Shown: positions 1,529 through 19,115 of the stretch, in pieces | Layout of the letters: each line of letters opens with the position of its first letter | How positions within the stretch are numbered: position 1 is the first letter of the stretch | From: a virus | Reading direction: 5' to 3' (one strand) | Virus record (IMG/VR): IMGVR_UViG_3300010883_014546 | Coordinates: 1 to 20,646 of that record | Length of the DNA stretch: 20,646 bases | Notes under the pieces: generated by a model | What the model saw: only the letters and a program-made list of their open reading frames with translations | The model's database searches: none | What the model was told of the DNA's origin: nothing | Position numbers and translations under genes: made by a program

Positions 1529-2695
1529 TTAGACAATCAGCCCCATGATAGCGCGAGCGTCGATACAGACACGGCCCTCTTCGAGGAATCCGTAAAAGCC
1601 TGTCTTCTCTACTCTGCTGCCATAAGCATTGAACTGCTCATCTGGTAACGCGGTAAACGTTCCGTTTCCGGAGCCATAATCATGACCACGGGAAACCGGG
1701 CGAATAAATGCGCCACGAGAATTATCAACGCCAATCACGATTTCATGATTATCAGCATTCCATGCGGTAGTTGTTCCGCTGGGGTCTACGTCATCAGTCA
1801 ACGTGGTTAGGTTGGATCCAAGCAGGCTGTTCCACAAGGTGTTATACTTTCTACCTTTGCCGAACTCAACCAATTCTACGATGTTAACACCGTAAATGGA
1901 TTGCATTCCGGCACCACGGTAGATCTCTTCGCGGACATTGTCCGGTAAAGCCTGAGTCGTGTCAGAAGATGTATACATTGGGTTATAAGCAAACGCTCGA
2001 ATCATCGCCTTAATCTCAGGACTTACGTATAAATCCGTAACTCCTGTTGAGTATGGGGCGATAGGTGTTTGGCCCGAAAAGGACTCGTTGAGTCTTTTCG
2101 TGTGGGTCATCAGGTTGTTCAGGTCTTGCAGACCGAACGCTCCGATTGCATTAGCTTGAATAACGTGCTTCAGCGCAGTAGACCCACCCGCAGTTGTCGT
2201 GTGGGTGACGGTCGTTTCCGCATCAGCGAGGGCTTTCAAGATGACGGCCCAAGCGTTTCTTTCCTGCTTAATGAGAACCTCATTAGCCATTCTTTCGAGA
2301 GCTTTGCTGACGATGTCAAGCCTTGCTCTGCGAGCGTAACGTTTGTTGAAGCTGACAGCTGAATCAAGCCTGTATGTGGCAATCTTGATTTCCTGCATGC
2401 CTTCTACTTGTGAAGTGGGCAAGCCACCAGCCATATGTTGACTCCATACTGTAACGTGACCTTCTCCGTCTCCGTGATAAAGATCAAGCGGATAACTTGG
2501 CGAATCGTCTTCGTCGAATGCAGAGTCTACATAAATTTGACTTGCTGTTCCTGCAGTCATGAGAACCTTTTCGATTACCGGACCGAGAAACGCTGCGAAA
2601 GCTTCAGAAGCTTCGCGAGCTACGCTTGAATCTCTAGAACCGATAGCCTTAACAAGCTCTACCTGCTCTGGTGTTTCTTTTAATTTTAATTTCAT
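1529..2695 (-). CDS. Major capsid protein (HK97-fold type)
   Basis: A 388-residue protein forming the icosahedral shell. Evidence is context plus sequence character. It directly follows the protease-scaffold and decoration-like genes. It is followed by a strong terminator. It has the best ribosome-binding site of the window (AAGGAGAT, 8 nt before the ATG). The protein has a charged helical N-terminus (residues 1-45), then an arm and E-loop-like region (residues 60-105). A long helix rich in Arg/Ala follows (RRARLDIVSKALERMANE, near 120-140), which is the usual HK97 spine-helix pattern. A mixed alpha/beta A-domain and a C-terminal strand region (GFYGFLEEGRVCIDARAIMG) complete it. It is not recognisably close to T4 gp23 by eye. 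The N-terminal segment could be removed by the upstream protease, but no cleavage site is assigned. Confidence 0.88.
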   Translation of the reverse strand: MKLKLKETPEQVELVKAIGSRDSSVAREASEAFAAFLGPVIEKVLMTAGTASQIYVDSAFDEDDSPSYPLDLYHGDGEGHVTVWSQHMAGGLPTSQVEGMQEIKIATYRLDSAVSFNKRYARRARLDIVSKALERMANEVLIKQERNAWAVILKALADAETTVTHTTTAGGSTALKHVIQANAIGAFGLQDLNNLMTHTKRLNESFSGQTPIAPYSTGVTDLYVSPEIKAMIRAFAYNPMYTSSDTTQALPDNVREEIYRGAGMQSIYGVNIVELVEFGKGRKYNTLWNSLLGSNLTTLTDDVDPSGTTTAWNADNHEIVIGVDNSRGAFIRPVSRGHDYGSGNGTFTALPDEQFNAYGSRVEKTGFYGFLEEGRVCIDARAIMGLIV

Positions 2696-2723: not shown

Positions 2724-3314
2724 TTAATTCCAGTGATCGATATCCAACAGCACGAGGGTATTACCTCCAGCCGCTGCGCCTAAAGCGATCCCGACTTGAA
2801 TAGATGATCCTGCATCTGTCGCTGTCATCCCACCGTTAGCGTCACCGTAAACGGCTCCACCTGCTGCGGGGGTTCCAGCTACGCCGTTGATCAAGAACAT
2901 TCCTCGTCTCACGACGGGGACTGCTTGACCTACGATACAAGCTTCCAATTCAGCCGCTTTTCTCGGGTTGAATTTTAGTTGCTCACCATTTTCGTCGTAA
3001 TGTGCGACGTGGTGTAGTGTCATCCCGAATGGTCTATCTGCCCCGTTCGCTTGCGAAGGGAAGACCTTAGCAGCTACACCGTAGCGCTGAGATGTTACGT
3101 TTTTAAGTCCTGAACTTGCTGCACCAGCGTCTTCCAACATCGCTAATTCTTGGTCAGCTTTCCAGCCGGTCTGGAGTGCTACCAGTGTACCGTGGGGAAG
3201 CTTTTTAGCCCAAGTGGAAAGGTCTTGTGTGCTGTCGAGACTTGTGTCGTGTAAGGAGAATAGATTTACTACATCCTTTTCGTCATAATCTCTAAATGGT
3301 TTTAATGTCGCCAT
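2724..3314 (-). CDS. Putative head decoration / capsid-associated protein
   Basis: A 196-residue protein between the scaffold and the major capsid gene, the position of decoration or cement proteins such as lambda gpD. It opens with an acidic helical stretch (MATLKPFRDYDEKDVVNLFS). A middle alpha/beta part follows. The last third is Gly/Ala-rich and low in charge (GVAGTPAAGGAVYGDANGG, near 145-162), ending in a hydrophobic strand LVLLDIDHWN. It has no Cys except one near residue 126, and no signal peptide or membrane span. An AAGGA ribosome-binding site lies 10 nt before the ATG. The stop is 28 bp upstream of the capsid start, so the two genes are likely cotranscribed and made in large amounts. 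The decoration role is inferred from position and composition; a minor head or vertex protein is the alternative. Confidence 0.6.
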   Translation of the reverse strand: MATLKPFRDYDEKDVVNLFSLHDTSLDSTQDLSTWAKKLPHGTLVALQTGWKADQELAMLEDAGAASSGLKNVTSQRYGVAAKVFPSQANGADRPFGMTLHHVAHYDENGEQLKFNPRKAAELEACIVGQAVPVVRRGMFLINGVAGTPAAGGAVYGDANGGMTATDAGSSIQVGIALGAAAGGNTLVLLDIDHWN

Positions 3315-3350
3315 AATGTTATATTCCTTTATCTGTTAATGTTTGTTAAA

Positions 3351-4016
3351 TTACTTAAGCTCGAACTGATCGAGGCTAAAAGCTTTTTTATATTTTTGTT
3401 GCAAAGTCCCTTCTTCTGCCGTGGTAGAATTTGGAATATCTTCCATCTCTTCTTCCTGAGCTTCTTCGACAGCGTTTTCAATCGCCGTGGAATCTTCTGC
3501 GTCTTCAGTAGAGGCTTTGACTTGTTCTTGTTCTGCTTTTTCAGCTTTTTCAGCTTTTAGCTTTTCTTCCTTATCTTCCTTTGCGAGAAGTTCCCGACTC
3601 TTACCCTTTAAGAGTACCGCAAGCTTCTTCGAGTAAGACTCGAAATTTTCGTTATCCATATCTTTAATATCCGAAGCGATAACCTCCCGATCTTCATCGG
3701 TTAGTTTGTATTCTTCATCTAATGTAGACATGCGTTCATTGAATCTTTGTTGAGTTTCTCTCTCCTGCTTATCAGTCTCAAGTTCGGCTAAAGACTTCTC
3801 GACAGACGTTAGCTTTTCCTTGAGCTCTTCTTGCTCTTTGGTAATAACTTCGTTTTGCTCGATGGAGTCTTTCAGCTGATTTTCAACAGCCACCTTTTCT
3901 TCTGTGTATTGTTCAGAAGCTTTCTTGAGCTCGTCTTCGATAAAATCGGCGACGGCAGAAGCAGACATCTCTTGTAAAGACTCGTCTGTTATATCTTTGA
4001 TTGACTTAATTTTCAT
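3351..4016 (-). CDS. Nested in-frame scaffold protein (internal start)
   Basis: An internal ATG at 4016, codon 282 of the protease-scaffold frame, is preceded by TAAAGGAGAAAGTC, a strong Shine-Dalgarno (AGGAG) with 6 nt spacing. It would give a 221-residue scaffold beginning MKIKSIKDITDESLQ. The product is almost all charged helix (Glu/Lys/Ser-rich, low aromatic), matching capsid scaffold or core proteins that are needed in many more copies than the protease. The start lies exactly where the protease-like part and its basic linker end. In lambda, the Nu3 scaffold is made in the same way from within gene C. The site is seen directly; its use in vivo is inferred. Confidence 0.75.
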   Translation of the reverse strand: MKIKSIKDITDESLQEMSASAVADFIEDELKKASEQYTEEKVAVENQLKDSIEQNEVITKEQEELKEKLTSVEKSLAELETDKQERETQQRFNERMSTLDEEYKLTDEDREVIASDIKDMDNENFESYSKKLAVLLKGKSRELLAKEDKEEKLKAEKAEKAEQEQVKASTEDAEDSTAIENAVEEAQEEEMEDIPNSTTAEEGTLQQKYKKAFSLDQFELK

Positions 4017-4859
4017 GACTTTCTCCTTTAAAATTACATTTTTAATTGGTTTTCGTGAAATATTATTTGAAGTGGAATTGGTTTTAACCAAACTTTCTTC
4101 TTCTTTTCTGCGTTTTTTAGTTTTTTCCGTAGATACCCCTTTTACATCTGCTGCCGGGGTTTCCGTAAGCCCGATGCCGAGAGGAACCACGTTCCCGATG
4201 ACCTGTCTATATGCCTTTGTGTTTTCATCGACAATTTCTTTGCCACCGAAAGCTCTTAAATGATTTTGAAGCTCTTTTATCTTCACTTCATCAGCGATAA
4301 CTTCACCATTTTCTATATTTTTTTCATCGTTTTTGAGGAGGATAATGTTAAAATCCGAAAAACCTAACTCCCAGCTTGCTGATACTTTTAAGTAATTTTC
4401 GCTTGTTGGATCGCTTGAGTCCTCAATAAAACTTGCAATTTCATCATTTACTATTTTCCATATAACGCCACCCAAAGTTACGTTAAAGGGCCCGACCATA
4501 TCTTTAACCTGTTCAACGGTAAGAGCCTTGTCCGTTCCAAACTCGCTGAAGCCTGCTGTTAGAATCGTTCCGATGACCCTGTCTCTATTGTGCTCTATAT
4601 TGATTGGCTTATTCAAGAAGTTCTCGTAAATAGCGACCGCTGTTTTCGTATCGATTACGTCGCCATTCTTATTTACCCTGTTAGTTACGAAAGCGTTAAA
4701 AGCTATAGGGAGTAAGTCAACATTGTTTTCCAAGTCGATGTCAGGGATAAAGTCTCCGACGTCCAGCATGCTTGCTAAAGCTAAGTACTTGTCTCTTTCT
4801 TCTGAAACCGCTGCTCTTATCTGTGAATTAAAAGTTGTTTTGTATTGAAATTCTTTCAT
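3351..4859 (-). CDS. Prohead protease-scaffold fusion protein
   Basis: A 502-residue protein joining two assembly functions. The N-terminal 250 residues resemble phage prohead maturation proteases (T4 gp21 / S78-like). They contain IEHNRDRVIGTI with a candidate catalytic His at 90, a glycine-rich core strand (VTLGGVIWKIV), and LKVSASWELGF with candidate nucleophile Ser160 or Ser162. The catalytic assignment is by motif resemblance only. A basic linker (KKRRKEEES) follows. Residues 282-502 form a highly charged, coiled-coil scaffold with heptad-like Leu/Glu/Lys stretches, an acidic Ala/Glu-rich stretch and a short hydrophobic-basic tail (KKAFSLDQFELK) of the type that binds capsid subunits. 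An in-frame ribosome-binding site and ATG at the junction allow the scaffold to be made alone. AGGA precedes the ATG at 4859 by 8 nt. Decoration and capsid genes follow. The fused layout is like lambda C/Nu3. Confidence 0.8.
   Translation of the reverse strand: MKEFQYKTTFNSQIRAAVSEERDKYLALASMLDVGDFIPDIDLENNVDLLPIAFNAFVTNRVNKNGDVIDTKTAVAIYENFLNKPINIEHNRDRVIGTILTAGFSEFGTDKALTVEQVKDMVGPFNVTLGGVIWKIVNDEIASFIEDSSDPTSENYLKVSASWELGFSDFNIILLKNDEKNIENGEVIADEVKIKELQNHLRAFGGKEIVDENTKAYRQVIGNVVPLGIGLTETPAADVKGVSTEKTKKRRKEEESLVKTNSTSNNISRKPIKNVILKEKVMKIKSIKDITDESLQEMSASAVADFIEDELKKASEQYTEEKVAVENQLKDSIEQNEVITKEQEELKEKLTSVEKSLAELETDKQERETQQRFNERMSTLDEEYKLTDEDREVIASDIKDMDNENFESYSKKLAVLLKGKSRELLAKEDKEEKLKAEKAEKAEQEQVKASTEDAEDSTAIENAVEEAQEEEMEDIPNSTTAEEGTLQQKYKKAFSLDQFELK
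4017..4030 (-). promoter_or_regulatory. Internal ribosome-binding site for the scaffold
   Basis: TAAAGGAGAA at 4030-4021 on the minus strand, then AGTC and ATG. It lies inside an open coding frame, where so good a Shine-Dalgarno match at correct spacing to an in-frame ATG is unlikely by chance. It decides the nested scaffold start. Confidence 0.78.
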
Positions 4860-4920: not shown

Positions 4921-5790
4921 TTAGTATCTGCAAACGCCTCCGCTACAGTTTCCTTTCGTTAACTGGTCTGGCGTCTTGAAAAGCTTGTCGCCTTCTTTCC
5001 AATTTTTTCCTGCGTTCGAGCACGTGTATCCCACGGTAACCCCTTCTTCATTGGGGAGTTTTTTGATATCATCTACGACGCCTTCGCTATTGAAGTGTTT
5101 GCATTCTGAATTTGTGTTTTTTACATGGTCCCCCTTGGAAAAGCTAGGATACCCCTTGAATTTGTTTGCGTTAACTTTTTCCCAAAGCTCGTCATAGTTT
5201 GATTTGCTTTTCTTTTTGTTTAACCACGGCGGAAGCTTTTTGCCGTTTTTGTCTTTCTCTTCTTCATCCCCCTTCTTGCCGTCTTTCTTACCGCCTTTCT
5301 TGTCGTCTTTCTTGTCGTCTTTCTTGTCGTCCTTTTTCTTTAGAAAGTCGGGCTTCTTGGCGAGATTTTCTTCGCAATCTGCTTGCACGTGATCCACCTC
5401 TCTCAGCTCCACGGCTAAATCGGGCAAGTCTTCTATCTTTCTAGTTGACTCGTGCAAATTTTGCTTTTCATGCTCCGTCTTGGGTTTCGCATCTGGATCC
5501 CACTGGGGGTCAGCAGCAACGATTTCCACATCTTTTAGTTCCGGGAATACAGTCAAGATTCTTTTTAGGCAGTCGAAATTTCTAAATTCATTTTTGCCTT
5601 CGTTTCCCCAGTCATACCCAATGTCATTTAGGTAGGCCTTGATGCCTTCTTCGCTGGAGAAAACCATTCTAATGATTTCTCCTTCTTCTGTTTTTTCAAA
5701 GAGAGCGTATCCTTGCGGGGTCGGAAACGGTTTGTGGAGAACGTTCCGTTCTTTCATCTGTATAATGTCGTTTGTGAAATCAATGTTCAT
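4921..5790 (-). CDS. Charged three-part protein, possible prohead core component
   Basis: A 289-residue protein if translation begins at the ATG at 5790 (MNIDFTNDIIQ). A TTG six codons upstream would overlap the preceding gene and is less likely. The N-terminal part (about 1-110) is a compact alpha/beta region (PTPQGYALFEKTEEGEI). The middle (about 145-190) is an extremely Lys/Asp-rich linker built on repeated DDKK units. The C-terminal 75 residues form a small domain with KGDHVKNTNSECKHFNSEG, a Gly-Val-rich middle and KEGDKLFKTPDQL, probably an SH3/KOW-like barrel, with Cys residues near the end (NCSGGVCRY). The family is not recognised. It lies between portal and protease genes, the place of T4 core proteins gp67 and gp68, so a role in the prohead core is possible but unproven. 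The start is 4 nt after the upstream stop, suggesting translational coupling. Confidence 0.62.
   Translation of the reverse strand: MNIDFTNDIIQMKERNVLHKPFPTPQGYALFEKTEEGEIIRMVFSSEEGIKAYLNDIGYDWGNEGKNEFRNFDCLKRILTVFPELKDVEIVAADPQWDPDAKPKTEHEKQNLHESTRKIEDLPDLAVELREVDHVQADCEENLAKKPDFLKKKDDKKDDKKDDKKGGKKDGKKGDEEEKDKNGKKLPPWLNKKKSKSNYDELWEKVNANKFKGYPSFSKGDHVKNTNSECKHFNSEGVVDDIKKLPNEEGVTVGYTCSNAGKNWKEGDKLFKTPDQLTKGNCSGGVCRY
5296..5331. repeat. 12-bp tandem repeat coding for DDKK linker
   Basis: Three perfect copies of tttcttgtcgtc (plus strand) lie at 5296, 5308 and 5320, with degenerate copies on the left (tttcttaccgcc at 5284). In the gene's frame each copy gives Asp-Asp-Lys-Lys. The repeat stays in frame when copies are gained or lost, so the linker length can drift without breaking the gene. 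Confidence 0.88.
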
Positions 5791-5794
5791 AGCT

Positions 5795-6310
5795 TTATTC
5801 CCATCCAAATAGTATTGGCTTATAAGGTTCTAAGTATAGTTCGTTTATGTTTTTAAAATCTAAATTTAAATTGTACTTTTTGACGTTAGCTTCGGCCGCC
5901 TTAACGTCTTCCTCTTCTGGGGTCCATGTGTCGGAGATGTCTATAAAGTTATTTATTTCCTCAGGACGTCGATCTTCGAGCACTAGCTCTAATACTTCCT
6001 GCGAGGCGGAACAATCAGGGGGAGCAGTGGTGCTCGCCTTCTTTTGCTCTTTCATCCTTAAAAACATATTGACTCTGGCAAGGCCGTTAAGGTTCAGGTT
6101 CTCTTTGGAGGAAGACGAGCCTCGAAGGTATACTTCTTTCAGCTGCTCTATCTTAATGCTGGACTTGTTCCTCTTATTGAAGCTTTTCTTTATGTCCTCC
6201 AAACAAGAAATGAGATTGCCAGAGAAAGATATTCTCTGACGTTCTAATTTTTTTTCGCTTTCAATAGACGAATCCTTTTCTTGTGGGCTTCCCTTGGACA
6301 TATTTTTCAT
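5795..6310 (-). CDS. Hypothetical charged protein
   Basis: A 171-residue protein with no recognised family. The N-terminus is polar and charged (Lys/Glu/Ser-rich) with a second in-frame ATG at codon 4 (MKNMSKGS). The centre is helical (SCLEDIKKSFNKRN, LNLNGLARVNMFLRMKEQ). A Thr/Ala/Pro linker follows near 93-100, and then an acidic C-terminal half (DTWTPEEEDVKAAEANVKKY) ends in aromatic LEPYKPILFGWE. No signal peptide, membrane span or metal motif is visible. It is the first gene after the terminator that follows the lipoprotein gene. Its stop codon lies 4 nt before the next ATG, so the pair is probably coupled. Its place between portal and protease suggests a head-assembly accessory. No clear Shine-Dalgarno sequence precedes the start. 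Confidence 0.55.
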   Translation of the reverse strand: MKNMSKGSPQEKDSSIESEKKLERQRISFSGNLISCLEDIKKSFNKRNKSSIKIEQLKEVYLRGSSSSKENLNLNGLARVNMFLRMKEQKKASTTAPPDCSASQEVLELVLEDRRPEEINNFIDISDTWTPEEEDVKAAEANVKKYNLNLDFKNINELYLEPYKPILFGWE

Positions 6311-6401: not shown

Positions 6402-6905
6402 TTATTTAATTATAAGGTATGTTTCCTTTACAACAGTGTCCTTTCCAAAAAAAGTTAATATATTTTTATCCACAGGAAAGCACATCCAATGGTAATTTAA
6501 GGTGTTCTTTTCCTTGATTAAAATGATAGCTATGTCTATTGTTTTATTTAAGCTTGAATACTCCTTGCCCCTCTCGACGGAGTACCCCTTATCTTTCAAC
6601 GCGTTAATCATCTCTTCTGGAAACGTTATTCTTCTGGCTTCGTTATTAAAAATAGCAGCAACGTCTCTTATGAGGGAATTAAATTTGTGGCTTTTTTGAA
6701 TAGCGTGACTTATGTCTTCTTGGCTTATATGGATATTTAACTCTCTGAAAGCTTTTTCTAGGGCTTCTGGGCCACAGCTAAAAACATGAAGGGGGTCTTT
6801 ATCGTCTTTTCTTAATTCAGAATAACGCGCGGGCTCACGAAATTGATCCATTAAGCCGCATCCCATTAAAATTAATCCAAATAAAAGAATAAAAAAAAAG
6901 CGCAT
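6402..6905 (-). CDS. Lipoprotein with C39-peptidase-like fold
   Basis: A 167-residue protein. Residues 1-16 are a type II signal: MRF, a hydrophobic run, then the lipobox LMGC with lipidated Cys16, so the mature protein should be membrane-anchored and face the periplasm. The rest resembles papain-like C39 domains. FSCGPEALEKAF places a candidate catalytic Cys at 44, and a helical pattern like C39 (EDISHAIQ, then INALKDKGY) follows. NYHWMCF gives a candidate His at 139, and Asp146 could be the third residue. The full length is short for a peptidase, but the Cys and His are both present. Such a lipoprotein is unlikely to be a capsid part. Superinfection exclusion, envelope modification or host-protein processing are possible roles. 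It sits between an FtsZ-like gene and a hairpin terminator, like a self-contained cargo gene. No Shine-Dalgarno site is obvious. Confidence 0.68.
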   Translation of the reverse strand: MRFFFILLFGLILMGCGLMDQFREPARYSELRKDDKDPLHVFSCGPEALEKAFRELNIHISQEDISHAIQKSHKFNSLIRDVAAIFNNEARRITFPEEMINALKDKGYSVERGKEYSSLNKTIDIAIILIKEKNTLNYHWMCFPVDKNILTFFGKDTVVKETYLIIK

Positions 6906-6951: not shown

Positions 6952-8127
6952 TTATTTACCATTAGCAATCTCATTAAGTTCCCTTAGCTTGCCATCAGGT
7001 TGTCCTAATCCACCGATAACACTAAAAATATTTAACGTAGGTTTATCTCCACTGTAAACTCCGCCATGAACCGTGCTCCCAGACTTGAGCATCCTGTTAA
7101 GTTGATCTAAGGCTTGGTCTATGTGACTTTGGGGAAGGTTGTCTAGTACTTCTATCCCACCAATCATTATGACTCCAGCTGTATTTCCGGTGCTTACATC
7201 AATCCCGCTAGACAATAAATTGCTTCTAAGATTTTCCCTAACTGTTCGTGAAATCTGAACAGGATCGTGCCAGTCCTTCACCGGCGAAGCGCCGAATAGG
7301 ATTAATCCAGAATTTAGTATCCCTTTATAGTCATTCTTGTCGAAAGAGGTATAGCTACTGTCTTTCGCTGAGGTCAGATTAAATAAGTGAAATAATCCAG
7401 CCAAGTTGGAGTTTGCCACGTTCCAGAATTTGGAAACTGCCACACTTGGATACAGCGAGACTACTTTTTCGTTATCTAGCAGGATCAAGGGGGAAACTAT
7501 CCCTTCCCTCACTAGGCTGTATACGTTTCTTAAAGTGGTTGCCGCGTTATTGTTTACTTTTGCTCCTTCAGATTTTTTGGGCAGCGTTAAGATTACTCCC
7601 ACTTGCTTTTCTTTGGTTTTCACCAGTTCTTGAACTTCCTTAGCTAAATTAACTAATGGGGTTACCATTCCTGACCCAGTACCGCCTCCTGCACCAGCGC
7701 AAATGAAAATCCTATCGAAAGATTCACCGAAAGAATATCTCATGAAATCGATGACGTCTTCTTTGTTTTCTTTGAGCTTTTGCGCAGCGACCGCTGGATC
7801 TTTACCGGCTCCACCGCCCTCTCCAACGCATAGCTTTTGTTTTAAGGATAAAGAATTTAAATCAGAACTAGCGGTGTTAATTGCGGCTACTCTATTATAG
7901 CCAAGCTTCGAAAAGGTTTCCGCCAGCCTTGACCCCCCTTGCCCTGCCCCCAAGAAACAGAATTTAAAAGAAACATCTACATCGTCCTCTACATCATGGA
8001 CAAGGTAATCTTTTACCTCCCCGTTATCCTCCGGGACAAGAAGATCTTCAGGCATGGAAATATCTGACTCTCCGTAAAAAGACTTAATTTGTTCATTGTT
8101 TTCGTTTTCGTTTTTTTGCTCGCTCAT
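6952..8127 (-). CDS. FtsZ/tubulin-superfamily GTPase
   Basis: A 391-residue protein. Residues 1-50 are an acidic extension. The GTPase domain then shows FCFLGAGQGGSR (phosphate loop T1, 56-67), GEGGGAGKDP (T3-like, 102-111), the hallmark tubulin/FtsZ signature GGGTGSG (147-153) and an Asn/Ala-rich T6-like segment (NNNAATTLRNVY). Near 261-271, SFDKNDYKGIL matches the catalytic T7 loop with DxxD Asp263 and Asp266 kept, so self-stimulated GTP hydrolysis upon polymerisation is expected. The remainder fits an FtsZ-type activation domain (GVIMIGGIEVLDNLPQ). The C-terminus lacks an obvious FtsZ tail peptide. Known phage relatives such as PhuZ of jumbo Pseudomonas phages make filaments that position the phage nucleus or deliver capsids; whether this one does so is unknown. 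An AAGGA site lies 10 nt before the ATG, and the gene follows the portal gene by 32 bp. Confidence 0.88.
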   Translation of the reverse strand: MSEQKNENENNEQIKSFYGESDISMPEDLLVPEDNGEVKDYLVHDVEDDVDVSFKFCFLGAGQGGSRLAETFSKLGYNRVAAINTASSDLNSLSLKQKLCVGEGGGAGKDPAVAAQKLKENKEDVIDFMRYSFGESFDRIFICAGAGGGTGSGMVTPLVNLAKEVQELVKTKEKQVGVILTLPKKSEGAKVNNNAATTLRNVYSLVREGIVSPLILLDNEKVVSLYPSVAVSKFWNVANSNLAGLFHLFNLTSAKDSSYTSFDKNDYKGILNSGLILFGASPVKDWHDPVQISRTVRENLRSNLLSSGIDVSTGNTAGVIMIGGIEVLDNLPQSHIDQALDQLNRMLKSGSTVHGGVYSGDKPTLNIFSVIGGLGQPDGKLRELNEIANGK

Positions 8128-8159: not shown

Positions 8160-10181
8160 TTATAGCTCACCTTTTTCTTCTGCTTCTTCTGTCTTGCTAT
8201 GGTATAATATACTTGCCATAAACGTATTAACTTGGTGTTCTATCGCTATATCTGATACCTCTTTTACCGTATCGTGATTTTTATCCACAGGATTCTTAAG
8301 GTATTCATCGATAGAGCTTTTCCAGTTTTCTTGCGTTTCGTTTGCCATAATTATACCAGTGATGCTTTCAGCGATTTCTTTTTGATCCTTATTCAGTCTT
8401 TTTACTTTGTGAGTTTTTCTCAAGGCGGCTTCTACGTTTTTTTCGAGATCCTGAGAAAGCAGAACGTTTTCCCTGACCTTATTAAAACTGAAGAACGATC
8501 TTGATTCCCTCGTGTCTTCCTGAGGAGTGCCTGTGCCCTCCGGGCGACCAGTTTGCTGCTTCTGCTTGGTGTTATTATTTTTCGCCGGTTGGCCTACTGA
8601 TTTTTCGGAACCCATTTGCGCCATCTTTAGTTCGTGGCTTCGTTGTTTAGCTGCGTCCGTTGGGTCTACTCCACCCATCATTGGTATATACAAGCCCTTA
8701 TCTTTCAGGCTCTTATATTCTCTTTGCGACTCAAGAGACTCCTCTTGCGTGGGTAGCCTCCCGGTTTCTATAGCCTTCAACCCTTCCATCGGCGTCAGGA
8801 CTCCTATTTCGACCAGCCTACTGTAAACTTTAGCGAAGGTCGTGCTCTCCCTTAGGCTTATCTCGTCAAATATGGGCGTAGGATAATTTTTAAGGCCCAC
8901 GTTCTGAGCTACCCTTCTTATCTCTGGAATCAAAAAATCATTAAGGAAAGTTTCCCTAGCTTGCTTTAACCTCGCTAAGAAAATCTCCACTTTCATTGAG
9001 AAGCTGCTAGATTTATCACCCGTAGATAATCCTCCGCCCGCTCCAGTAATCATACTGTTTAGTCCGGCTTGGATATCTGAGTTTACGATTTCGTATTTTC
9101 TAGGATCAAGAAGGTCGCCTATCTGTGGGATAACGAACTGAGCCTTGGTTGTATAATCAGCGATCAACACTCTCCCTACTGATTGGTTTTCGAAAAGCTT
9201 TTGCAGCTCCACTAAATTCTTTTGATTTACGCCCCCCTTGTCTGGGTCGGTTCCCGTAGTAACCAGCAAAACCGCTTGTTGCATTGTTCTGGCGATGGCC
9301 ATGTCCATCCGTTTTAGTTCTGATTTATGATTTATATCTTCAAGAACGGGGTACCCCATCGGAACAGCGAAAGGCTCGTAATCCATTTTTTTATAGAATA
9401 CTGCGGAAATCTTTTCAGCCTCTAGGGGGATTCTTATACAGTTGATAACTTGACCAGAGTTTAGTAGTTTCTTGACCTCGGCAGGCAGGGAATCTCTTAT
9501 CTTCTTGTCTTCGTCAGTCTTCGCGACTCTAACTCTTTCTAGCTCGTAATCAGAAAGCACCTTGTGGTATTTTTTGACATCAGTAGAAAAGCTTAATGAC
9601 CCGGATAGTTGAATGTCTGCTGGGTTAAGTATTACGTATCTATATGGGATTTTAATTTTTTTTGCGCCGAATGTTTGCGAGAGCTTCTTCACGTCTTCTT
9701 TTTTGATTTCGGCGTCAAGCCTGTATAAAAAAACGTTACCCGACCTGAAGTACTCTCTGAAAAATCTATCCTGTAAGTCTGATATATTTATTTTCTTCAA
9801 TAACGCTTCGAAGAATCTTCTTGATTTTTTGCTTCCGCCTCGAAAACAAATGCTTGCCGCTGCAAATTCCGTCATTAAATCTATAGCATTCCTGAAAACA
9901 GAAAAGTTGTAATAAGCCTTTTGGCATAAAATGACAGCGTCTCTTATAGACATGCTCCCCTTGCTATCGGTAGATGTAAACGGAACTAGGCCCTTATCTA
10001 TGTTCGTATACTTATCGGTTCTTTCGATATTGCTGGATACATTTCTCCTGTAGGAGGTTCTGTCGGAAGACGACGCTTTTGCTTCGCCGGAAGCTTCAGA
10101 TATCATAATGGGGACGATGTCTTCTGTTTTCTTTTTGCTCGCCCCGGACCCCTTCGTTGTTGTTTTTTTTGAAACGCTCAT
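8160..10181 (-). CDS. Portal protein
   Basis: A 673-residue protein, expected to form the dodecameric ring at the head vertex through which DNA is packaged. It lies directly downstream of the large terminase and upstream of the protease, the standard portal position. The first 65 residues are a basic, Ser/Lys-rich tail. The body has typical portal features: KAYYNFSVFRNAIDLMTEF (about 89-107), then FFREYFRSGNVFLYRLDAE (about 139-157), and a stem/crown region with LMTEF-type helices and long helical segments (EIFLARLKQARETFLNDFL). The C-terminal 130 residues are Lys/Gln/Glu-rich with a Pro/Gly linker and charged helices, perhaps a crown extension. The length exceeds T4 gp20 (about 520 residues). 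The upstream leader is A-rich with no Shine-Dalgarno site. The assignment is based on order and pattern. Confidence 0.85.
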   Translation of the reverse strand: MSVSKKTTTKGSGASKKKTEDIVPIMISEASGEAKASSSDRTSYRRNVSSNIERTDKYTNIDKGLVPFTSTDSKGSMSIRDAVILCQKAYYNFSVFRNAIDLMTEFAAASICFRGGSKKSRRFFEALLKKINISDLQDRFFREYFRSGNVFLYRLDAEIKKEDVKKLSQTFGAKKIKIPYRYVILNPADIQLSGSLSFSTDVKKYHKVLSDYELERVRVAKTDEDKKIRDSLPAEVKKLLNSGQVINCIRIPLEAEKISAVFYKKMDYEPFAVPMGYPVLEDINHKSELKRMDMAIARTMQQAVLLVTTGTDPDKGGVNQKNLVELQKLFENQSVGRVLIADYTTKAQFVIPQIGDLLDPRKYEIVNSDIQAGLNSMITGAGGGLSTGDKSSSFSMKVEIFLARLKQARETFLNDFLIPEIRRVAQNVGLKNYPTPIFDEISLRESTTFAKVYSRLVEIGVLTPMEGLKAIETGRLPTQEESLESQREYKSLKDKGLYIPMMGGVDPTDAAKQRSHELKMAQMGSEKSVGQPAKNNNTKQKQQTGRPEGTGTPQEDTRESRSFFSFNKVRENVLLSQDLEKNVEAALRKTHKVKRLNKDQKEIAESITGIIMANETQENWKSSIDEYLKNPVDKNHDTVKEVSDIAIEHQVNTFMASILYHSKTEEAEEKGEL

Positions 10182-10227: not shown

Positions 10228-12057
10228 TTACACCATTCTGGGTGTAAAGGTCGCGGCGGCATCATCTAATTTGTAATTCATCATATCGAAGTAACACTTT
10301 ACACCCCAATTGGCTAAAAGTAAACCAGTATAATTATCTTTTCTTGCCCTACCCGCGCTGGTATTCCGCTTTAAATGCTGCGGGAGATCAAACGTCTGTG
10401 TTCCTCTGGAGGTCGTCTTGACTTCGACAAGAGCGCACTGTTTCTTAACTTGATATACTAAATTATCTTGAGTTTCAATGAATTCTCCTAAATTTTCTTC
10501 ACAGGCATAGTCTAGATTGACCTTAGACATGCTTTGCTTGTCGAATTCCGAACCGTTTGCCGTGGTTCTGGACGCAAACCATACTTTTTTATAATCTATA
10601 TTTGCCTGAAGCAGTTCGTTTGCTTTCCTTATCCAGTCGCTTGAAAAAACTTGATTGAACACGATTCGGCGACCTTCCTTATTGTACGTGGACTTAAGAT
10701 CTCTGACTTCTTTCAGATAATCCACGCCTTCTTTATTAGAGTCGAAGTCGATAACTTTCAAATTAATTCTATTGTCTATAAATAACTTGGAGTGGTTTGC
10801 AGCCTCTAGAAACATGTCTGATCCGGCGTTATCGATACATATTAACTCTGGGTCAAAGTTGTCTAATACGTAATTAAGATATTTTACATGATTATTCAAA
10901 CTGCCTAAACCAGCGTAATTGTGCACAAGAGTTGAAGATTCCTTTTCTTCGTCTAGCTCCATTACAGAAATGGCAAAATAATCCGCGCTCGGACTATCGC
11001 TCATGTTGGGGTCAATGCCTATCACGTATTTTCTAGACGACTTGCCCCTTACAAGAGTGGTTGGTTCTTCCCCGTCCGGAACAGTGCATTGATGCATCTT
11101 GATCGCGCTGAAATAACTATCACTTCCGTCCGTAAATTGAGCGCAATACTCTCTCTGAAACGAAGCGTTAGAATACCCGCCGTCTTGAGCTGCCTCGATT
11201 ATTGTATGGTCAATCATGTGCTTTGGCAGGGATTCGTAACTCAATTGGGACACGAAATAAGAGGAGTCCTCCTTTTCTTCTTTGTAAATATGATTAACCC
11301 AGTCTTTGTATGTCTTATACAAGTTTTCAAAAGTATAGCTTGCCGAGGATAGCGCTATCATTTTACTGTTATTTTCAAAGACCATTCTGTCCTCCTCTTT
11401 CATGAAGCCTTTCTCTATGAGCCCGTCTTCTGTTTCACGTACCTCTATTCTCTCCTTCATGTCTTGAGGGGCAACCAAAAAAGGCATGAGAACCGTATTA
11501 ATTAAATCTTCCGGCAAAAGCAAAAACTCATCCAGTAAGAGCACGTTAGCTCGGAAACCGCGAATTTTTTCTCCGTTAAGAGGAATGGCCGTAATAGTCC
11601 CTCCATTTATCTGCCATTGAAATTGATCGTTCCTCTTAGACTTCGCCCCGAAACACTGCATCAAAAGCTCCGCGCCCTCAGACTCTACTATCTTTTCTAA
11701 GCTTTCGAATATGAATCTAGCTGTTCTGAACGTTGGTCCCGCTACTAATATCTTGGTGCCGGGGTTAAATATGCAATGAAGAAAGCAGAATACTGAAGCA
11801 ATAAAAGTCTTACCGCAACCACGACCCCATACGCACATTGAGAAATTTTTTTCCATTAACCCTTTTAGGGTAATTTCTTGATATGGAGCCAACTTAATCC
11901 CCGAGATTAGCTCGGTCGTAAGACCCAAGTTACCGTTTAAGAATTTAGCTAACGTTAACTTAGCTTCGCTGTCAGAAAGGTTCCCCTTAATTTTCAGCAG
12001 CTCTTCATTAATGCTTTCGTCTCTCTTCGTTTTATATTTGTCTGGACAGTACCACAT
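10228..12057 (-). CDS. Terminase large subunit (TerL)
   Basis: A 609-residue DNA-packaging motor. The ATPase half shows Walker A GRGCGKT (78-84) preceded by the adenine-side YQ segment (LAPYQ, 56-60), Walker B VLLLDE (172-177) and a coupling motif SSAS (237-240). The C-terminal half is the RNase H-like headful nuclease. YVIGIDP (344-350) supplies the first metal-binding Asp (349), ELICIDN (404-410) the second (Asp409), and further acidic residues follow. Length and order match the terminase large subunits of T4-like and other phages. It packages the genome into the prohead via the portal encoded immediately downstream (46-bp gap). The start ATG is 7 nt after the upstream stop and has no Shine-Dalgarno site, implying coupled translation. 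Confidence 0.95.
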   Translation of the reverse strand: MWYCPDKYKTKRDESINEELLKIKGNLSDSEAKLTLAKFLNGNLGLTTELISGIKLAPYQEITLKGLMEKNFSMCVWGRGCGKTFIASVFCFLHCIFNPGTKILVAGPTFRTARFIFESLEKIVESEGAELLMQCFGAKSKRNDQFQWQINGGTITAIPLNGEKIRGFRANVLLLDEFLLLPEDLINTVLMPFLVAPQDMKERIEVRETEDGLIEKGFMKEEDRMVFENNSKMIALSSASYTFENLYKTYKDWVNHIYKEEKEDSSYFVSQLSYESLPKHMIDHTIIEAAQDGGYSNASFQREYCAQFTDGSDSYFSAIKMHQCTVPDGEEPTTLVRGKSSRKYVIGIDPNMSDSPSADYFAISVMELDEEKESSTLVHNYAGLGSLNNHVKYLNYVLDNFDPELICIDNAGSDMFLEAANHSKLFIDNRINLKVIDFDSNKEGVDYLKEVRDLKSTYNKEGRRIVFNQVFSSDWIRKANELLQANIDYKKVWFASRTTANGSEFDKQSMSKVNLDYACEENLGEFIETQDNLVYQVKKQCALVEVKTTSRGTQTFDLPQHLKRNTSAGRARKDNYTGLLLANWGVKCYFDMMNYKLDDAAATFTPRMV

Positions 12058-12511: not shown

Positions 12512-13471
12512 TTATAATATTTTTAAATCATAAGCCAATTGCAAATCTATCTTGACGTAGGAACAGCCGCTAAAAAATATTTTTTCGATTACTCTTTTTG
12601 ACTCTTTTCTCCCTTTAACAAATAAGAATTGTACGTGGGGGTATTTCTGGATCAGTTGCCTTACGTTATGGAAAATATACTCCGGGGTAACTTTTATCTT
12701 CTTCGATATGTAGGGTAAGTATTTGAAGCTCATGGCGTTACTTAGAGTGTCTTCTACGAGTATAATTAAATTCGCCTCCATCTTCTTCGCTCTGATAATC
12801 TCATTTTCAAATCTATCGAAATTTCTCACGCTCAGTGTTGATATGAAATCTGCCAAAGATTTTCTTTCTATGTAACAGTTGCACGTTAACCTTGGTTCGC
12901 TAAACGTATAATCCCCGACAGGTAACGTCATGGACTGCGTACGATAATCATCCCACTTTAAAGGCAGTTGTTCTCTTGTGTCTATATGTATGGAGTATTG
13001 GGGCTTTTCGTATTCTTTCCCCTCTGTGATTTCCGTGGGAAATTGGTATTTATTTTTAAACCCAATCCTTTCGCAATAGGAATAATAATTTTTAAATATT
13101 CCATGAAGATATTGAATGGGTGGAGAAAGTATGCTTCTCAACTCTACCTGAGAAGGGGTGTAAACTAAATTTTTCTTTTCTTTTCTTTTTGTCAAAAGCT
13201 CCCCGCAATAGTTTACGGCCTCTTCAGGAGCTCTTTCTTTTAGCCAAAGGCGTAGGTTTGTGCGAGAGTTAAAGTCTGTGGAGAAATATTGTTCTTTTGT
13301 TTTGTATTTAATGATTTCTTTATCGTGAAGATCGTGTCTCGGGTAATATTTTTGATAATATCCTACCACCCTCAGCTTATGAACTTTAATATGGGCGTGA
13401 AGTTGCCTTTCCGTCTCGAAGGGTTTCTTGCAGTTTTGACAAATCACTTTTTTTTCTTCTTGCTCTGTCAT
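12512..13471 (-). CDS. C2H2 zinc finger fused to ERCC4/XPF-type nuclease
   Basis: A 319-residue protein with two recognisable parts. Residues 11-31 form a C2H2 zinc finger: Cys11, Cys14, His27 and His31 in CxxC-x12-HxxxH spacing (CQNCKKPF...HAHIKVH). A helical middle region (about 35-150) has a dense aromatic/basic stretch (YYQKYYPRHDLHDKEI). Residues about 158-300 form an ERCC4 nuclease core: IHIDTREQLP (Asp164, Arg166, Glu167), LPVGDY (Gly186, Asp187), then IERKSLADFI (Glu202, Arg203, Lys204, Asp208). This GD...ERKxxxD array is the XPF/Mus81 catalytic signature. The protein should cut branched or specific DNA under metal dependence. Its 4-bp overlap with the upstream gene and its position before TerL suggest a role in recombination intermediates or packaging. 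A homing-type function is the alternative. Confidence 0.85.
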   Translation of the reverse strand: MTEQEEKKVICQNCKKPFETERQLHAHIKVHKLRVVGYYQKYYPRHDLHDKEIIKYKTKEQYFSTDFNSRTNLRLWLKERAPEEAVNYCGELLTKRKEKKNLVYTPSQVELRSILSPPIQYLHGIFKNYYSYCERIGFKNKYQFPTEITEGKEYEKPQYSIHIDTREQLPLKWDDYRTQSMTLPVGDYTFSEPRLTCNCYIERKSLADFISTLSVRNFDRFENEIIRAKKMEANLIILVEDTLSNAMSFKYLPYISKKIKVTPEYIFHNVRQLIQKYPHVQFLFVKGRKESKRVIEKIFFSGCSYVKIDLQLAYDLKIL

Positions 13472-14544
13472 ATTTCATCTTCGTCTAAACCTAAGATTCT
13501 CGCTTTTATTTCATCCATAGACGACAGATTTTTCGCTTCGTCCTTAACGCTCTTTCTTCTTATCTCGGAGAGCTTGATGAGTTTCACCCTGCTTTCTTCG
13601 TCCTTCCAAACTTTGACTAAATTTAATATGCTTGCGTTTTCTTTAATTTGATTCTTGAGACGATCACTTCTCTTTTCTTTTAGATCGTTCAAAAGCTTCT
13701 GCTGCCTGTTAACAGATTGGTTGTATTCTGTTTCCGTCTTCCCTATAGCTTCGACTAGGGACATTGACGCCCTTCCGTTAGCGTCTTCCACTATGTCGTC
13801 AAGTAGTCCAGTCAAGTGCTCCTTTCTCCTTTGTATACTGGCTGAGATTACTACCTCAGAAGAAAGAACTATATATTGATCGACCTCTTCTTGAGTTAAA
13901 TCTGGCTTATCGTGAGTATACCTTACGAAGCTTGACTCAAATAGTTCCCTATCTGTTGTCGTAACATAAGTATTAATTTGATAACAAAATCTATAAGTAT
14001 TTATGTAATTGATTAAAGACTCAATATTCTTTTGTATCTTGGATGTGATTTTGTTTTTGTTTATGGATCCATTAGTGTATTTGTTTACCTTGAATAAGGT
14101 CTTGTCGAACGTCTTAGGCGGTTTGTATTTTTCCGTAGGAACTTCGTCTGGGGATTCGAAGGCGGTTGTGGGCTCTAGTTCTTTTATGAAATCGCTAACT
14201 ACTCGCGCCTCTTGGTTTAAATTACTTAAGCTTGGGTCTTTAAACAATATCCTTGCCATTTCCACGGAACTCATAAATTCAAGATTATTCTTTATGAAAA
14301 TTTCGTCTTCTTCGGTGAGGTCCATTTTTGTTTTCGCTTTGTATTCGTGAGCCGCCCTAGCCTTTATGCTCCTAGACGCCAAGAAGGCCTTAACAGCTTT
14401 CCCCTCTTTGGTTCTTCCGTCTAAGTCTTGATTGGGGAAAGCGAGCCTTATAAGCTCCAATAGCGAAGGCGGGGAATCTGGTCTGGAATTCCACTCTTCT
14501 AGAACTATCTTTTCTTGATCTTCTGTTAAGTTGAAGCTACTCAT
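13468..14544 (-). CDS. Protein with duplicated N-terminal helical unit (possible small terminase)
   Basis: A 358-residue, almost entirely helical protein. Two similar segments lie at the N-terminus: residues 6-60 (LTEDQEKIVLEEW ... LLELIRLAFP ... AVKAFLASRS) and 76-122 (LTEEDEIFIKNNL ... VEMARILFKDP ... VVSDFIKELE). Each has an acidic helix, a short turn and a second helix, which looks like a tandem HTH-like pair. A Pro/Lys linker follows (KYKPPKTFDKTLFKVNKY), then helical regions, and Lys/Glu-rich coiled-coil from about 260 to 345 (LLNDLKEKRSDRLKNQI). Helical DNA-binding domain plus coiled coil is the layout of many small terminase subunits, and TerL lies three genes downstream. This is only a candidate assignment. 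It overlaps the SET gene by 8 bp and the nuclease gene by 4 bp. Confidence 0.6.
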   Translation of the reverse strand: MSSFNLTEDQEKIVLEEWNSRPDSPPSLLELIRLAFPNQDLDGRTKEGKAVKAFLASRSIKARAAHEYKAKTKMDLTEEDEIFIKNNLEFMSSVEMARILFKDPSLSNLNQEARVVSDFIKELEPTTAFESPDEVPTEKYKPPKTFDKTLFKVNKYTNGSINKNKITSKIQKNIESLINYINTYRFCYQINTYVTTTDRELFESSFVRYTHDKPDLTQEEVDQYIVLSSEVVISASIQRRKEHLTGLLDDIVEDANGRASMSLVEAIGKTETEYNQSVNRQQKLLNDLKEKRSDRLKNQIKENASILNLVKVWKDEESRVKLIKLSEIRRKSVKDEAKNLSSMDEIKARILGLDEDEI

Positions 14545-15250
14545 CTTTTGTATTTTCTAAATCGGCAGGCTTCAAGTCTTCCGGCGTACTTGCCGCTGTC
14601 ACTTCTTGCTGCTCTTGACTCTCTTTGATTCTTTTGATAAACGGGACCCAGTATGAGTGTCCATAATTTACGTAGATTTCCTCACCCGCTTTAATGTCTC
14701 TTATGGATAATATATAAATCAAGGCTTCTGTTGGGTGTGACCAATAAGTGGAATTGTACCCCTGCGAAATATCTAATTCGTTCTCGGCTTTTAAGTCGTC
14801 TCCAGACTTGGGCTGCTTTTCTCGCGTCTCTCGTTCTTTCTCGTACTCTTCACCGCTTCTCTCAAGGGGGCCTCGCTTATCGTTTACGAATCCCCCAAGG
14901 CCCATTTCTTCATCAGTTAACGAGGGCTGGCAGTCTATCATCTTCCCCTCCCTCCCAGTCGTTTTAGACGATTGTTTTCGCCAGCTGATCGCGTATAGCG
15001 CCAAGGGTCTATCAAACCCCAAGCTCATTGTGTAGGCGTATTTTTCCCCTAACCTTTTCTGAGACGCTTCTGAGAGGGAAACTGAGCCACTAGCACCGTC
15101 TTGGCCTTCTAAATCAAGAAGTTCGCCTTTGTACTCGCAGATAGGCTTACCAGACAATATGTCTACCCCCGCAAATAAACCTACCCCTGCTCCCGGGACT
15201 TTGGAAACGCCTAGGTACAATTTGTCAGCTATGTTGTCTATAATTTTCAT
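14537..15250 (-). CDS. SET-domain protein (putative lysine methyltransferase)
   Basis: A 237-residue protein. The first 50 residues carry the SET N-motif: GVSKVPGAGVGLFAGVDI then an ICEYKGELLD strand (the G.G.FA ... I.EY.GE pattern). Further motifs are GLGGFVNDKRGP (113-124, the position of the Asn-containing cofactor motif, here with ND instead of NHS) and DIKAGEEIYVNYGHSYW (192-208, the G-E-E-[I/L]-x-x-x-Y pattern with the catalytic-type Tyr203). A charged insertion rich in Glu/Lys lies near 125-155. SET enzymes transfer methyl groups from SAM to protein lysines; the substrate here is unknown. The last 25 residues are acidic and disordered. The start overlaps the sigma-factor stop as ATGA, and the gene overlaps the next by 8 bp. 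Motif evidence is good; activity is not shown. Confidence 0.78.
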   Translation of the reverse strand: MKIIDNIADKLYLGVSKVPGAGVGLFAGVDILSGKPICEYKGELLDLEGQDGASGSVSLSEASQKRLGEKYAYTMSLGFDRPLALYAISWRKQSSKTTGREGKMIDCQPSLTDEEMGLGGFVNDKRGPLERSGEEYEKERETREKQPKSGDDLKAENELDISQGYNSTYWSHPTEALIYILSIRDIKAGEEIYVNYGHSYWVPFIKRIKESQEQQEVTAASTPEDLKPADLENTKDE

Positions 15251-15945
15251 AATAATTCAATTCCCCCTTTCTCAATGCATTCTTTTGCTTTTCTCAATAT
15301 GCTCTTTTTTAGATTTTTAATCTGCTTGTAGCCGGGCTTCCTGTTTTTTTCGTTTGACTTTAACCCTAGCTTTTCCGCCACATCGTCTTCTTCTAAATTT
15401 TTTATGTAAAGCCCCTCGTAAACTATCCATTCATTTGGCTTTAAAATCTGATTCATTTTAAAATGCATTAAATTAACATGCTTCTCGGTGTCTCCCGAGT
15501 TTACGGACTCTATCGAATCTGTTTCAAAAACATGATCTTCCAGTGAGAGGGGGATCTTGATGCTGTAAGCTGATTTCTTGGTTCTTTCCCACTTCGCATA
15601 GAGAGGGCAATCGTCACATTGTGTTTCGTATATTTTGCAAGAAGCTTCCCCTTCTCCTGCTTCGCATTTTAAACATGGCCTAGCGAAATTTCCATAATGG
15701 TTTCTTATTAGGTTTTTAATTTGATTAGATATAATCCTATTTAACCAAGGGCCTAGAGGTTTCTCCGTATCATACAGTGCCCATTTTTCATAAATGTGCG
15801 CCCTAATGATTTGAGAAACGTCATCATAGTCTATCCAGTTTAAGGACGTCAGGCTCCATTTTTTACTTCTCTTTCGTATCTCCTGATTGATGAAATCGTA
15901 ACTCTCTTCAAACGTTGGCTTTTTTTTACGGGTGCTTTTGTTCAT
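15247..15945 (-). CDS. Divergent sigma factor with central Cys cluster
   Basis: A 232-residue sigma-70-family-like protein, thought to redirect host RNA polymerase to phage promoters. Residues about 10-85 resemble region 2: a helix (FEESYDFINQEIRKRS), then WIDYDDVSQIIRAHIYEKW and PWLNRIISNQIKNLIRNHYG, the polymerase-binding and -10-reading helices. Residues about 158-225 resemble region 4, an HTH: NEWIVYEGLY, EEDDVAEKLGLKS, then a basic recognition-like helix (GYKQIKNLKKSILRKAKE). Between them are five Cys, at 91, 94, 103, 110 and 113 (CLKC and CDDC pairs), suggesting a bound zinc that is not usual in sigma factors. It is shorter than host sigmas and compares with small phage sigmas such as T4 gp55. 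Its stop overlaps the SET-domain start as ATGA. Confidence 0.75.
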   Translation of the reverse strand: MNKSTRKKKPTFEESYDFINQEIRKRSKKWSLTSLNWIDYDDVSQIIRAHIYEKWALYDTEKPLGPWLNRIISNQIKNLIRNHYGNFARPCLKCEAGEGEASCKIYETQCDDCPLYAKWERTKKSAYSIKIPLSLEDHVFETDSIESVNSGDTEKHVNLMHFKMNQILKPNEWIVYEGLYIKNLEEDDVAEKLGLKSNEKNRKPGYKQIKNLKKSILRKAKECIEKGGIELL

Positions 15946-17517: not shown

Positions 17518-18153
17518 TTATTTAAATAATCCCTCATCATTCATCAACTGATCTATAATTGAGAAATTACTTTCCGAAGAGGACGAATAGTAACCTATTT
17601 TTATATTATTCTTTATGAAGAAGTCGCTATTGAAAGTGTCCCTATACATAGCGAAAGTCACAAACTCTTTCGAATGCTCTTTCTTGCAAATTTTAATTAT
17701 TTTTTTGTAAAACGAACCCTCGGTGCCCTTGTAAGCTATAGACGATAGGCAAAATTTCGTTTCCATCCCTAACAGCTCGCTTATCCTAAAGACGCTATAA
17801 GCTGCTATATGTGAGATATTCTCGGACGGTAGCTTCACTATCTCTTTTACAACCGGGAACACTCTCTCAAAATTGGGAGACTCTTTGTATTCTGACGCGA
17901 TTATTTTAAGTAGATTTCTTCTCCAGTTACCCACGGATACAACTAAATCACAAATTTTCTTACTACTTGCGCGCTCTTCTATGGGTACCCTGAATACGAT
18001 TTTCTTTCCATTTTTTTTCAGTACAGTTTTGTTCACCCAAGATTTATCGTTGTAGTATGTGTCATCAGCAAAAACTACTTTATCCACCTTATTGACAACC
18101 TCTAAGTAGCTTTTGAAAGGAAAGAGGTTTGGTTGTAAAACTGTTATTTTCAT
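17518..18153 (-). CDS. WbqC-family protein
   Basis: A 211-residue protein. Family features are the N-terminal strand-loop VLQPNLFPFKSYLEVVN (5-21), the acidic DDTYYNDKSWVNKTVLK (30-46) and the C-terminal SIIDQLMNDEG (about 198-208), which together match the WbqC-like family pattern (QPNYFP-like start, DD ... W.N core, SI.D.L.N end). WbqC proteins occur in O-antigen and other surface polysaccharide clusters, where they are thought to help make or attach unusual sugars; the precise reaction is poorly known. Its ATG overlaps the stop of the oxygenase-like gene by 4 bp, so it belongs to the sugar module. Confidence 0.85.
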   Translation of the reverse strand: MKITVLQPNLFPFKSYLEVVNKVDKVVFADDTYYNDKSWVNKTVLKKNGKKIVFRVPIEERASSKKICDLVVSVGNWRRNLLKIIASEYKESPNFERVFPVVKEIVKLPSENISHIAAYSVFRISELLGMETKFCLSSIAYKGTEGSFYKKIIKICKKEHSKEFVTFAMYRDTFNSDFFIKNNIKIGYYSSSSESNFSIIDQLMNDEGLFK

Positions 18154-19115
18154 TTTGCGTCAAAGAAAAACATGTGGAACAATCTTGAATTTTGCTTTTG
18201 GTCTCCGAAGTATTCGGAAGCGGCATGGATTAATTTCGCATCCCAGATTACAAGCCTGTTATAGACATTACCAACGACATCGACCACCTCTAAATCTGTC
18301 TTATCGTAAAAGTTATTCTTAAAAATTTCGAAAGATAAGTCGTCCTTGCTTCGGCCTATTCTTTCAGAATCCTCGTCTGTCGGAGAATGTAATAGCCCCG
18401 TACTCTTGCTCTTAAAGAAGGTGGTCCCACATGAGACTGGGGCATTTGGGGTAAGGAAAACAACGGCTGCATAAGTCTGTGCGTCGACGTGATACACCAA
18501 TGAGTCTTCAGCGGTACAAAACTGGAACACCCCGTTCGCCCCTTGATCTTCCCAGCTCGTGATTTCCATTCGTAAAAGAGTCTCTAGAGTCTCCTTGATC
18601 CCGTCAGGAATATACTTGGACTCGGTTCTTTGCCCCTTGTGGTATTCGAGGTGAGGCGCGTATCCACGCGATAGAGCAAAATCTCTTATCTCGTCTGGGT
18701 TTTCGTAAAAGTCGTCAATGACTATCAGTTCTGGGTTTAACTTTTTTGAAATTTTGAAATCGACCGTTTTCTTTTCTTCTGTCAGAGACCACGCCTCCGC
18801 CCCTTCAATGTTGACAGCCTTTGTCCATGCTTTCTTTTTCAAAACCTCCAAGCATAGATCTTTTGCGTCTTTGAATTTTCGCGGAATAGATATAGAAAAT
18901 CCCGAATTTAAGAAGTCTTTATTTTCGTAATGCTCCTGCACATCTTTCCGCTCTTTCCCGTATACGCCCACAAAGGACTCCTTACCTTTCGATAGTCTTA
19001 CGTTGTCCACTTTGCTTGAGGCGGAAGCGCACCACCCAACAATATTAAGTTCGTCGTCCTGACCGTTCACGGAATCAACGTGAAGCTTGACGTCTTCTAT
19101 CAATGTTTCATGCAT
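18150..19115 (-). CDS. Beta-sandwich plus 2OG-Fe(II) oxygenase-like (DUF6445-type) fusion
   Basis: A 321-residue protein with two parts. Residues about 10-80 form a strand-rich domain with GWCASASSKVDNVRL, VYGKERKDVQEHYE and NSGFSISIP. This resembles the small beta-sandwich found at the N-terminus of some polysaccharide-pathway transferases (pattern yG..R.DV ... SGF). Residues about 128-321 resemble DUF6445, a double-stranded beta-helix oxygenase relative: VIDDFYENPDEIRDFA, then YHVDAQ giving a His209-x-Asp211 iron pair, followed by PVSCGTTFFKSKSTG, with distal His297 (LIHAAS) and Arg311 (SRLFHMF) for 2-oxoglutarate. The facial triad is thus complete by eye. Hydroxylation of a sugar or protein substrate is inferred. 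The gene overlaps rmlB by 8 bp and the WbqC gene by 4 bp. Confidence 0.72.
   Translation of the reverse strand: MHETLIEDVKLHVDSVNGQDDELNIVGWCASASSKVDNVRLSKGKESFVGVYGKERKDVQEHYENKDFLNSGFSISIPRKFKDAKDLCLEVLKKKAWTKAVNIEGAEAWSLTEEKKTVDFKISKKLNPELIVIDDFYENPDEIRDFALSRGYAPHLEYHKGQRTESKYIPDGIKETLETLLRMEITSWEDQGANGVFQFCTAEDSLVYHVDAQTYAAVVFLTPNAPVSCGTTFFKSKSTGLLHSPTDEDSERIGRSKDDLSFEIFKNNFYDKTDLEVVDVVGNVYNRLVIWDAKLIHAASEYFGDQKQNSRLFHMFFFDAK

Follow-up and report, generated by a model that had tools for sequence, protein, structure and literature searches.

Most of what is described of phage tubulins concerns PhuZ, from jumbo phages that form a nucleus, and the TubZ of one partition prophage, c-st; CetZ, an archaeal member of the superfamily, has a cell-shape function. 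Across the tubulin superfamily, conserved acidic residues of the T7 loop act on the nucleotide of the next subunit, and polymers follow. By treadmilling, PhuZ filaments bring phage DNA to the cell centre and transport capsids, and TubZ moves plasmid DNA (PMC7950403). Among these systems, TubZ (Bacillus plasmids and phage c-st; type III partition) is the best match in sequence, profile (aligned over the full length) and fold to a protein encoded in the viral DNA analysed here. This DNA is a stretch of 20,646 nucleotides (positions 1 to 20,646 of IMG/VR record IMGVR_UViG_3300010883_014546), hereafter the window, in which a tubulin GTPase gene had originally been predicted among the head-assembly genes. 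The literature searched contains no account of a tubulin family of this kind. The best viral fold match in BFVD is A0A6J5RW92, 'FtsZ Cell division GTPase' from an uncultured Caudovirales phage (E 1.4e-33, 25% identity); likened by its fold match alone, this uncharacterised protein shows that such phage proteins have already been deposited and annotated.

Head module of the window

The head genes of the window, with the tubulin gene among them, are as follows.

1529..2695, minus strand: putative major capsid protein, assigned by position; weak PHROG matches only
2724..3314, minus strand: head cement/decoration protein (PF09956, 2e-6)
3351..4859, minus strand: putative prohead protease/scaffold, assigned by position only, in the order of SPbeta-like phages
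4921..5808, minus strand: 295-aa ORF with no assigned function, occurring only with the tubulin, in part of the loci
5795..6310, minus strand: 171-aa ORF of the head module, which related loci lacking the tubulin have too
6402..6905, minus strand: small putative lipoprotein with an N-terminal MGCG lipobox-like stretch and a CGPEAL motif
6952..8127, minus strand: phage tubulin, predicted TubZ-class GTPase of 391 aa (Pfam, PDB phmmer, AF2 and profile comparison)
8160..10181, minus strand: portal gene, directly upstream of the tubulin gene across a 32-nt gap
10228..12057, minus strand: terminase large subunit (TerL; Pfam Terminase_6N, 3e-10)

The tubulin gene was expected to be in line with the head genes, and it is: its ORF lies on the minus strand, as do its neighbours, and the plus strand of 6952-8127 is full of stops, with no ORF there. 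The genes run TerL, portal, protease, cement, capsid, an order similar to that of SPbeta-like phages, which show no tubulin at the corresponding place. The portal label is weak but consistent (PHROG portal 6e-6 in relatives, SPbeta YonE structure 0.004, and 4e-4 in a tblastn to SPbeta-like portals). The 'protease' and 'major capsid protein' gave no significant Pfam or PHROG match and none to their counterparts in one SPbeta-like phage. The predicted position between portal and protease is correct as to order, but three small ORFs separate the tubulin from the protease, which is itself a positional guess. The putative lipoprotein ORF was seen solely in tubulin-bearing loci, though in part of them, and a search for a tubulin-specific neighbour gene found none as constant as the tubulin. 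Promoter and terminator scans returned chance numbers only.

Several other genes of the window were noted. An ERCC4-type nuclease (12512-13471, minus strand), whose N-terminus resembles a C2H2 zinc finger, is conserved just upstream of TerL in the group, and a Sigma-70 region 2 protein (15247-15945, minus strand; 1e-5), possibly a late sigma factor, is conserved upstream of the head module. A SET-domain protein (14537-15250, minus strand; Pfam SET 1.9e-8), unusual in a phage, was also present in another locus (L258, 13564-14058), and a SET-like ORF was recognised by eye on a MAG contig bearing a relocated tubulin. Sugar-modification genes (WbqC-like, DUF6445 and GDP-mannose 4,6-dehydratase/epimerase; 17518-20043, minus strand) stand beside PhoH. 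Positions 10-573 are repetitive, and the corresponding region of relatives encodes collagen-like Gly-rich repeats (e.g., L008, 12941-13159).

A tubulin of the TubZ class

By homology far above chance, the window gene encodes a putative GTPase of the tubulin/FtsZ superfamily. The 391-aa protein matched Pfam Tubulin (4e-12, above the cut-off) and Tubulin_2 (3e-6), and the best PDB phmmer match was TubZ/RepX 4ei7 (1.3e-18), ahead of FtsZ (1e-14) and CetZ (4e-14). Among PHROG families, phrog_17961, for which no function is assigned, scored 3e-10 and the PhuZ family merely 0.02. The AF2 model (pLDDT 86, pTM 0.84) displays a complete tubulin fold from residue ~50 and, together with the Pfam and PDB phmmer matches, bears out the original prediction of a tubulin GTPase gene in the head module. 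The three motifs then listed (GGGTGSG, GAGQGGSR and SFDKND) are all present, alongside a disordered tail.

7330..7347, minus strand: T7 catalytic loop SFDKND, residues 261-266 (alignment, relatives)
7669..7689, minus strand: T4 tubulin signature GGGTGSG, residues 147-153 (alignment, relatives)
7927..7950, minus strand: T1 loop GAGQGGSR, residues 60-67 (alignment, relatives)
7969..8127, minus strand: disordered acidic N-terminal tail, residues 1-53 (sequence; pLDDT low in residues 1-42)
8032..8064, minus strand: tail motif DISMPEDLLVP, residues 22-32 (family alignment)

Across 52 diverse members of the family, 56-94% identical to the window tubulin, both T7 acids (D263 and D266) and most nucleotide-loop residues are invariant. 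The dN/dS of the tubulin against its two nearest relatives is 0.03-0.05, and the portal and terminase are alike in this respect. Judged from these alignments, the catalytic loops are under strong purifying selection.

Structure prediction and comparison, proposed as a check of the original reading, placed TubZ and CetZ nearest. Among the 50 PDB matches listed by VIA-align, TubZ-Bt reached Z 37.3 with 332 residues aligned (query ~50-391), TubZ-Bc 36.9, CetZ2 36.7 and FtsZ about 30-32; PhuZ structures were absent among these 50, a listing that excludes nothing. The family profile matched plasmid TubZ at 1.7e-22 over 322 columns and E. coli FtsZ at 7e-11 over 170 columns, in the N-terminal domain only. 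The protein is not PhuZ-like in descent: the corresponding hhalign match to PhuZ reaches only 4e-4 and spans 97 columns. A phylogeny with plasmid tubulins had likewise been suggested; in a small tree the family is separate from five plasmid TubZ, which form a side of their own, with weak support and long branches. From sequence and model, the nearest class is TubZ (CetZ being tied in fold), then FtsZ, and PhuZ is far. The protein is called TubZ-class, and not a TubZ partition protein, because of these profile and fold matches and its separate place in the tree.

The T1, T4 and T7 loops are common to TubZ and the window family. However, the window family differs from TubZ in having the disordered N-terminal tail with its motif, and it sits in phage head or replication modules, unlike partition TubZ; in the head context the tubC-tubR-tubZ cassette is absent and a portal gene lies upstream instead. 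PhuZ resembles the window tubulin as a phage-encoded tubulin for which DNA centring and capsid transport may be a shared job, but its sequence is very distant, and the window gene adjoins the portal. A search for chimallin, made without a positive control, gave no match in 8 incomplete contigs. CetZ is tied with TubZ in fold within method error, but its sequence score is lower and, unlike the window tubulin, it has no phage context. FtsZ has the superfamily and the loops in common with the window tubulin, but its C-terminal tail peptide is missing from the window protein, which stops after the fold.

The N-terminal tail

The 50-residue acidic N-terminal extension of the original prediction is present (53 residues in the window, 17 of them D/E and 3 K), but its notable part is a conserved PDIPLP-type motif and not acidity alone. 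The family form of this motif is D-I-S-L-P-D-I-P-[LMI]-P. The pattern D-[IVL]-x-[LMVI]-P-[DE]-I-P-[LMI]-P, close variants included, occurs in 51/52 divergent members, and a stricter core pattern in 131/137 distinct members. Tail length varies from 42 to 113 residues across the family, and the motif lies 23-37 residues ahead of the fold. Tubulins outside the head module retain the motif too, so the partner of the tail is probably not simply the product of the neighbouring gene. The analysis turned up no partner for the motif, nor a copy of it in the other ORFs of nine loci.

Distribution of the family

A first IMG/VR scan found 22 relatives of the window tubulin. Two later scans built on alignments raised the number of stretches that encode relatives to 230 and 328; from each of these two sets the 80 best were retained. 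All contigs are fragments, and distant members are under-sampled because the loci are best-scoring matches. No relative was found by tblastn in 50,697 GenBank phages, and searching 84,980 GTDB genomes with a peptide pattern gave none either; a direct search of MAG bins yielded one divergent and one close family member. A hint of TGA stops in one MAG-bin member was dropped, the ORF being open under table 11. A Halobacteriovorax MAG includes a 101-kb contig, L259, with a divergent tubulin (2933-4147, minus strand; 2e-37) next to PhoH; the N-terminal extension of this tubulin is long and lacks the PDIPLP motif. The MAG bins in which portal relatives were seen belong to several phyla, a spread that may reflect binning noise, and dUTPase, sought as a genome marker, gave nothing useful.

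The tubulin and portal genes co-occur in all of the first 85 loci. In a larger set the portal lies on the same contig, upstream of the tubulin, in 133/134 loci, and in the one exception the contig ends before the expected portal place. The two genes overlap or are <=10 nt apart in 56/84 loci; the window has a gap of 32 nt, and the others have one or more variable genes in between. Tubulin and portal distances are correlated (r 0.78; portal-terminase 0.84). On these sequence comparisons, the tubulin of the window's clade is as constrained as the portal and has evolved together with it.

Portal adjacency was dropped as the defining feature of the whole family after a wider scan from a divergent member found both upstream and replication-module members. 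In that scan the order TerL-tubulin-portal appeared in L186, L211, L267, L268, L281 and L286, and 40 tubulin loci had no portal nearby. A conserved subset of these 40 has the tubulin between RecA and DnaB helicase genes, followed by genes for primase, a PD-(D/E)XK nuclease and DNA polymerase III alpha. On the tubulin tree, whose root was not inferred, gene place changes twice, downstream of the portal once (support 98) and upstream once (support 100), so that the portal was reached twice, on opposite sides.

Among portal relatives of ~55-60% identity, the tubulin is missing at this place from many loci whose downstream sequence is long enough to show it, and it is therefore dispensable or relocated in these phages. 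Ten of these contigs, all incomplete and at most 97 kb long, carry no tubulin anywhere on them. In two RecA/DnaB-type genomes (170 and 144 kb), each with a single tubulin, a portal of the same family lies far from the tubulin and groups, adjacent to the upstream clade, with the 'no tubulin' loci; some apparent absences are therefore likely relocations. On the portal tree, tubulin presence clusters strongly (3 changes vs a shuffled mean of 21.7). Outgroup portals on MAG contigs (~40% identity) are mostly followed directly by the putative protease. In L160, L162, L171, L177 and L185, which are without tubulin, insertions concentrate around the portal, and the fibre-like proteins encoded there have in common an N-terminal stretch resembling M-x-N-L-I-R-x-K-Q-x-D-Q.

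Proposed function and alternatives

We give about an even chance to a GTP-driven TubZ-class filament that couples phage DNA and heads, a TubZ-type protein thus doing work like that of PhuZ, which is taken by analogy as the working model for the mechanism. The tubulin would bind and hydrolyse GTP and assemble head-to-tail filaments, and in the window's clade it would be made together with the portal. The disordered tail, via its PDIPLP-type motif, would provide the docking site for a common partner from phage or host. Filaments so anchored would position replicating phage DNA and/or carry proheads to the DNA, and replication and packaging would meet in one place. The conserved loops and T7 acids predict GTP hydrolysis between subunits and hence polymers; we infer polymerisation from the T7 acids and are less sure of the cargo and of the docking role of the tail. 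Because the gene travels between replication and portal neighbourhoods inside a single phage family, its function probably bears on both DNA and packaging.

A filament coordinating capsid assembly or transport had been offered as one possibility. Given that the gene keeps its place next to the portal, a link to heads or packaging is plausible, but a role tied to capsid assembly alone is less likely than a DNA-head link because relatives occur in DNA-replication modules. The same relatives, far from head genes, weigh against a head-assembly or packaging GTPase acting as a chaperone or switch, in which dimers or short oligomers would work at the portal with no long filament. Such a protein would fit the strict portal neighbourhood and co-evolution in the window's clade, and a dimer would suffice for the T7 acids; however, the full tubulin fold keeps all polymer loops, and we regard this reading as distinctly unlikely. 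Position among head genes would also suit a virion component inside or on the head, but relatives outside the head module keep both fold and tail, which makes this extremely improbable.

On the side of DNA, portal-adjacent genes need not be partners of the portal, an objection to the coupling filament, and the neighbourhood could reflect late expression with no head contact if the protein served TubZ-like genome positioning or segregation only. TubZ is indeed the closest class, and many relatives lie in DNA-replication modules. However, the head context has no TubR-like gene and no space for a tubC centromere, because the portal stop overlaps or nearly touches the tubulin start, and the portal side was reached twice; we hold this explanation to be unlikely, though worth serious weight. 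Interference with host FtsZ, also raised originally, is conceivable for a tubulin-superfamily protein in a phage, which might poison the host ring through co-assembly. It is poorly supported and very improbable: the gene lies in the head (late) operon in the window's clade, its own catalytic T7 loop is conserved, its sequence is nearer TubZ than FtsZ, and its divergence tracks that of the phage portal.

Implications for phage biology

Returning to the coupling filament, a tentative extension, which we would not yet favour, is that the family forms a third, common phage tubulin lineage, in phages that are not known to form a nucleus. Its filaments would bind the prohead or packaging machinery through the PDIPLP tail, heads would be delivered to replication sites, and the gene would have moved between the replication module and either side of the portal as this coupling evolved. 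Related phages in which the tubulin gene adjoins the portal, lies among the replication genes or was not found offer a clean comparison. Uncultured phages of a widespread group encode their own tubulin-like protein of the TubZ type, predicted to form filaments, and the places of its gene suggest a role where DNA and heads meet. If true, cytoskeletal organisation of phage infection would be more general than the phage nucleus.
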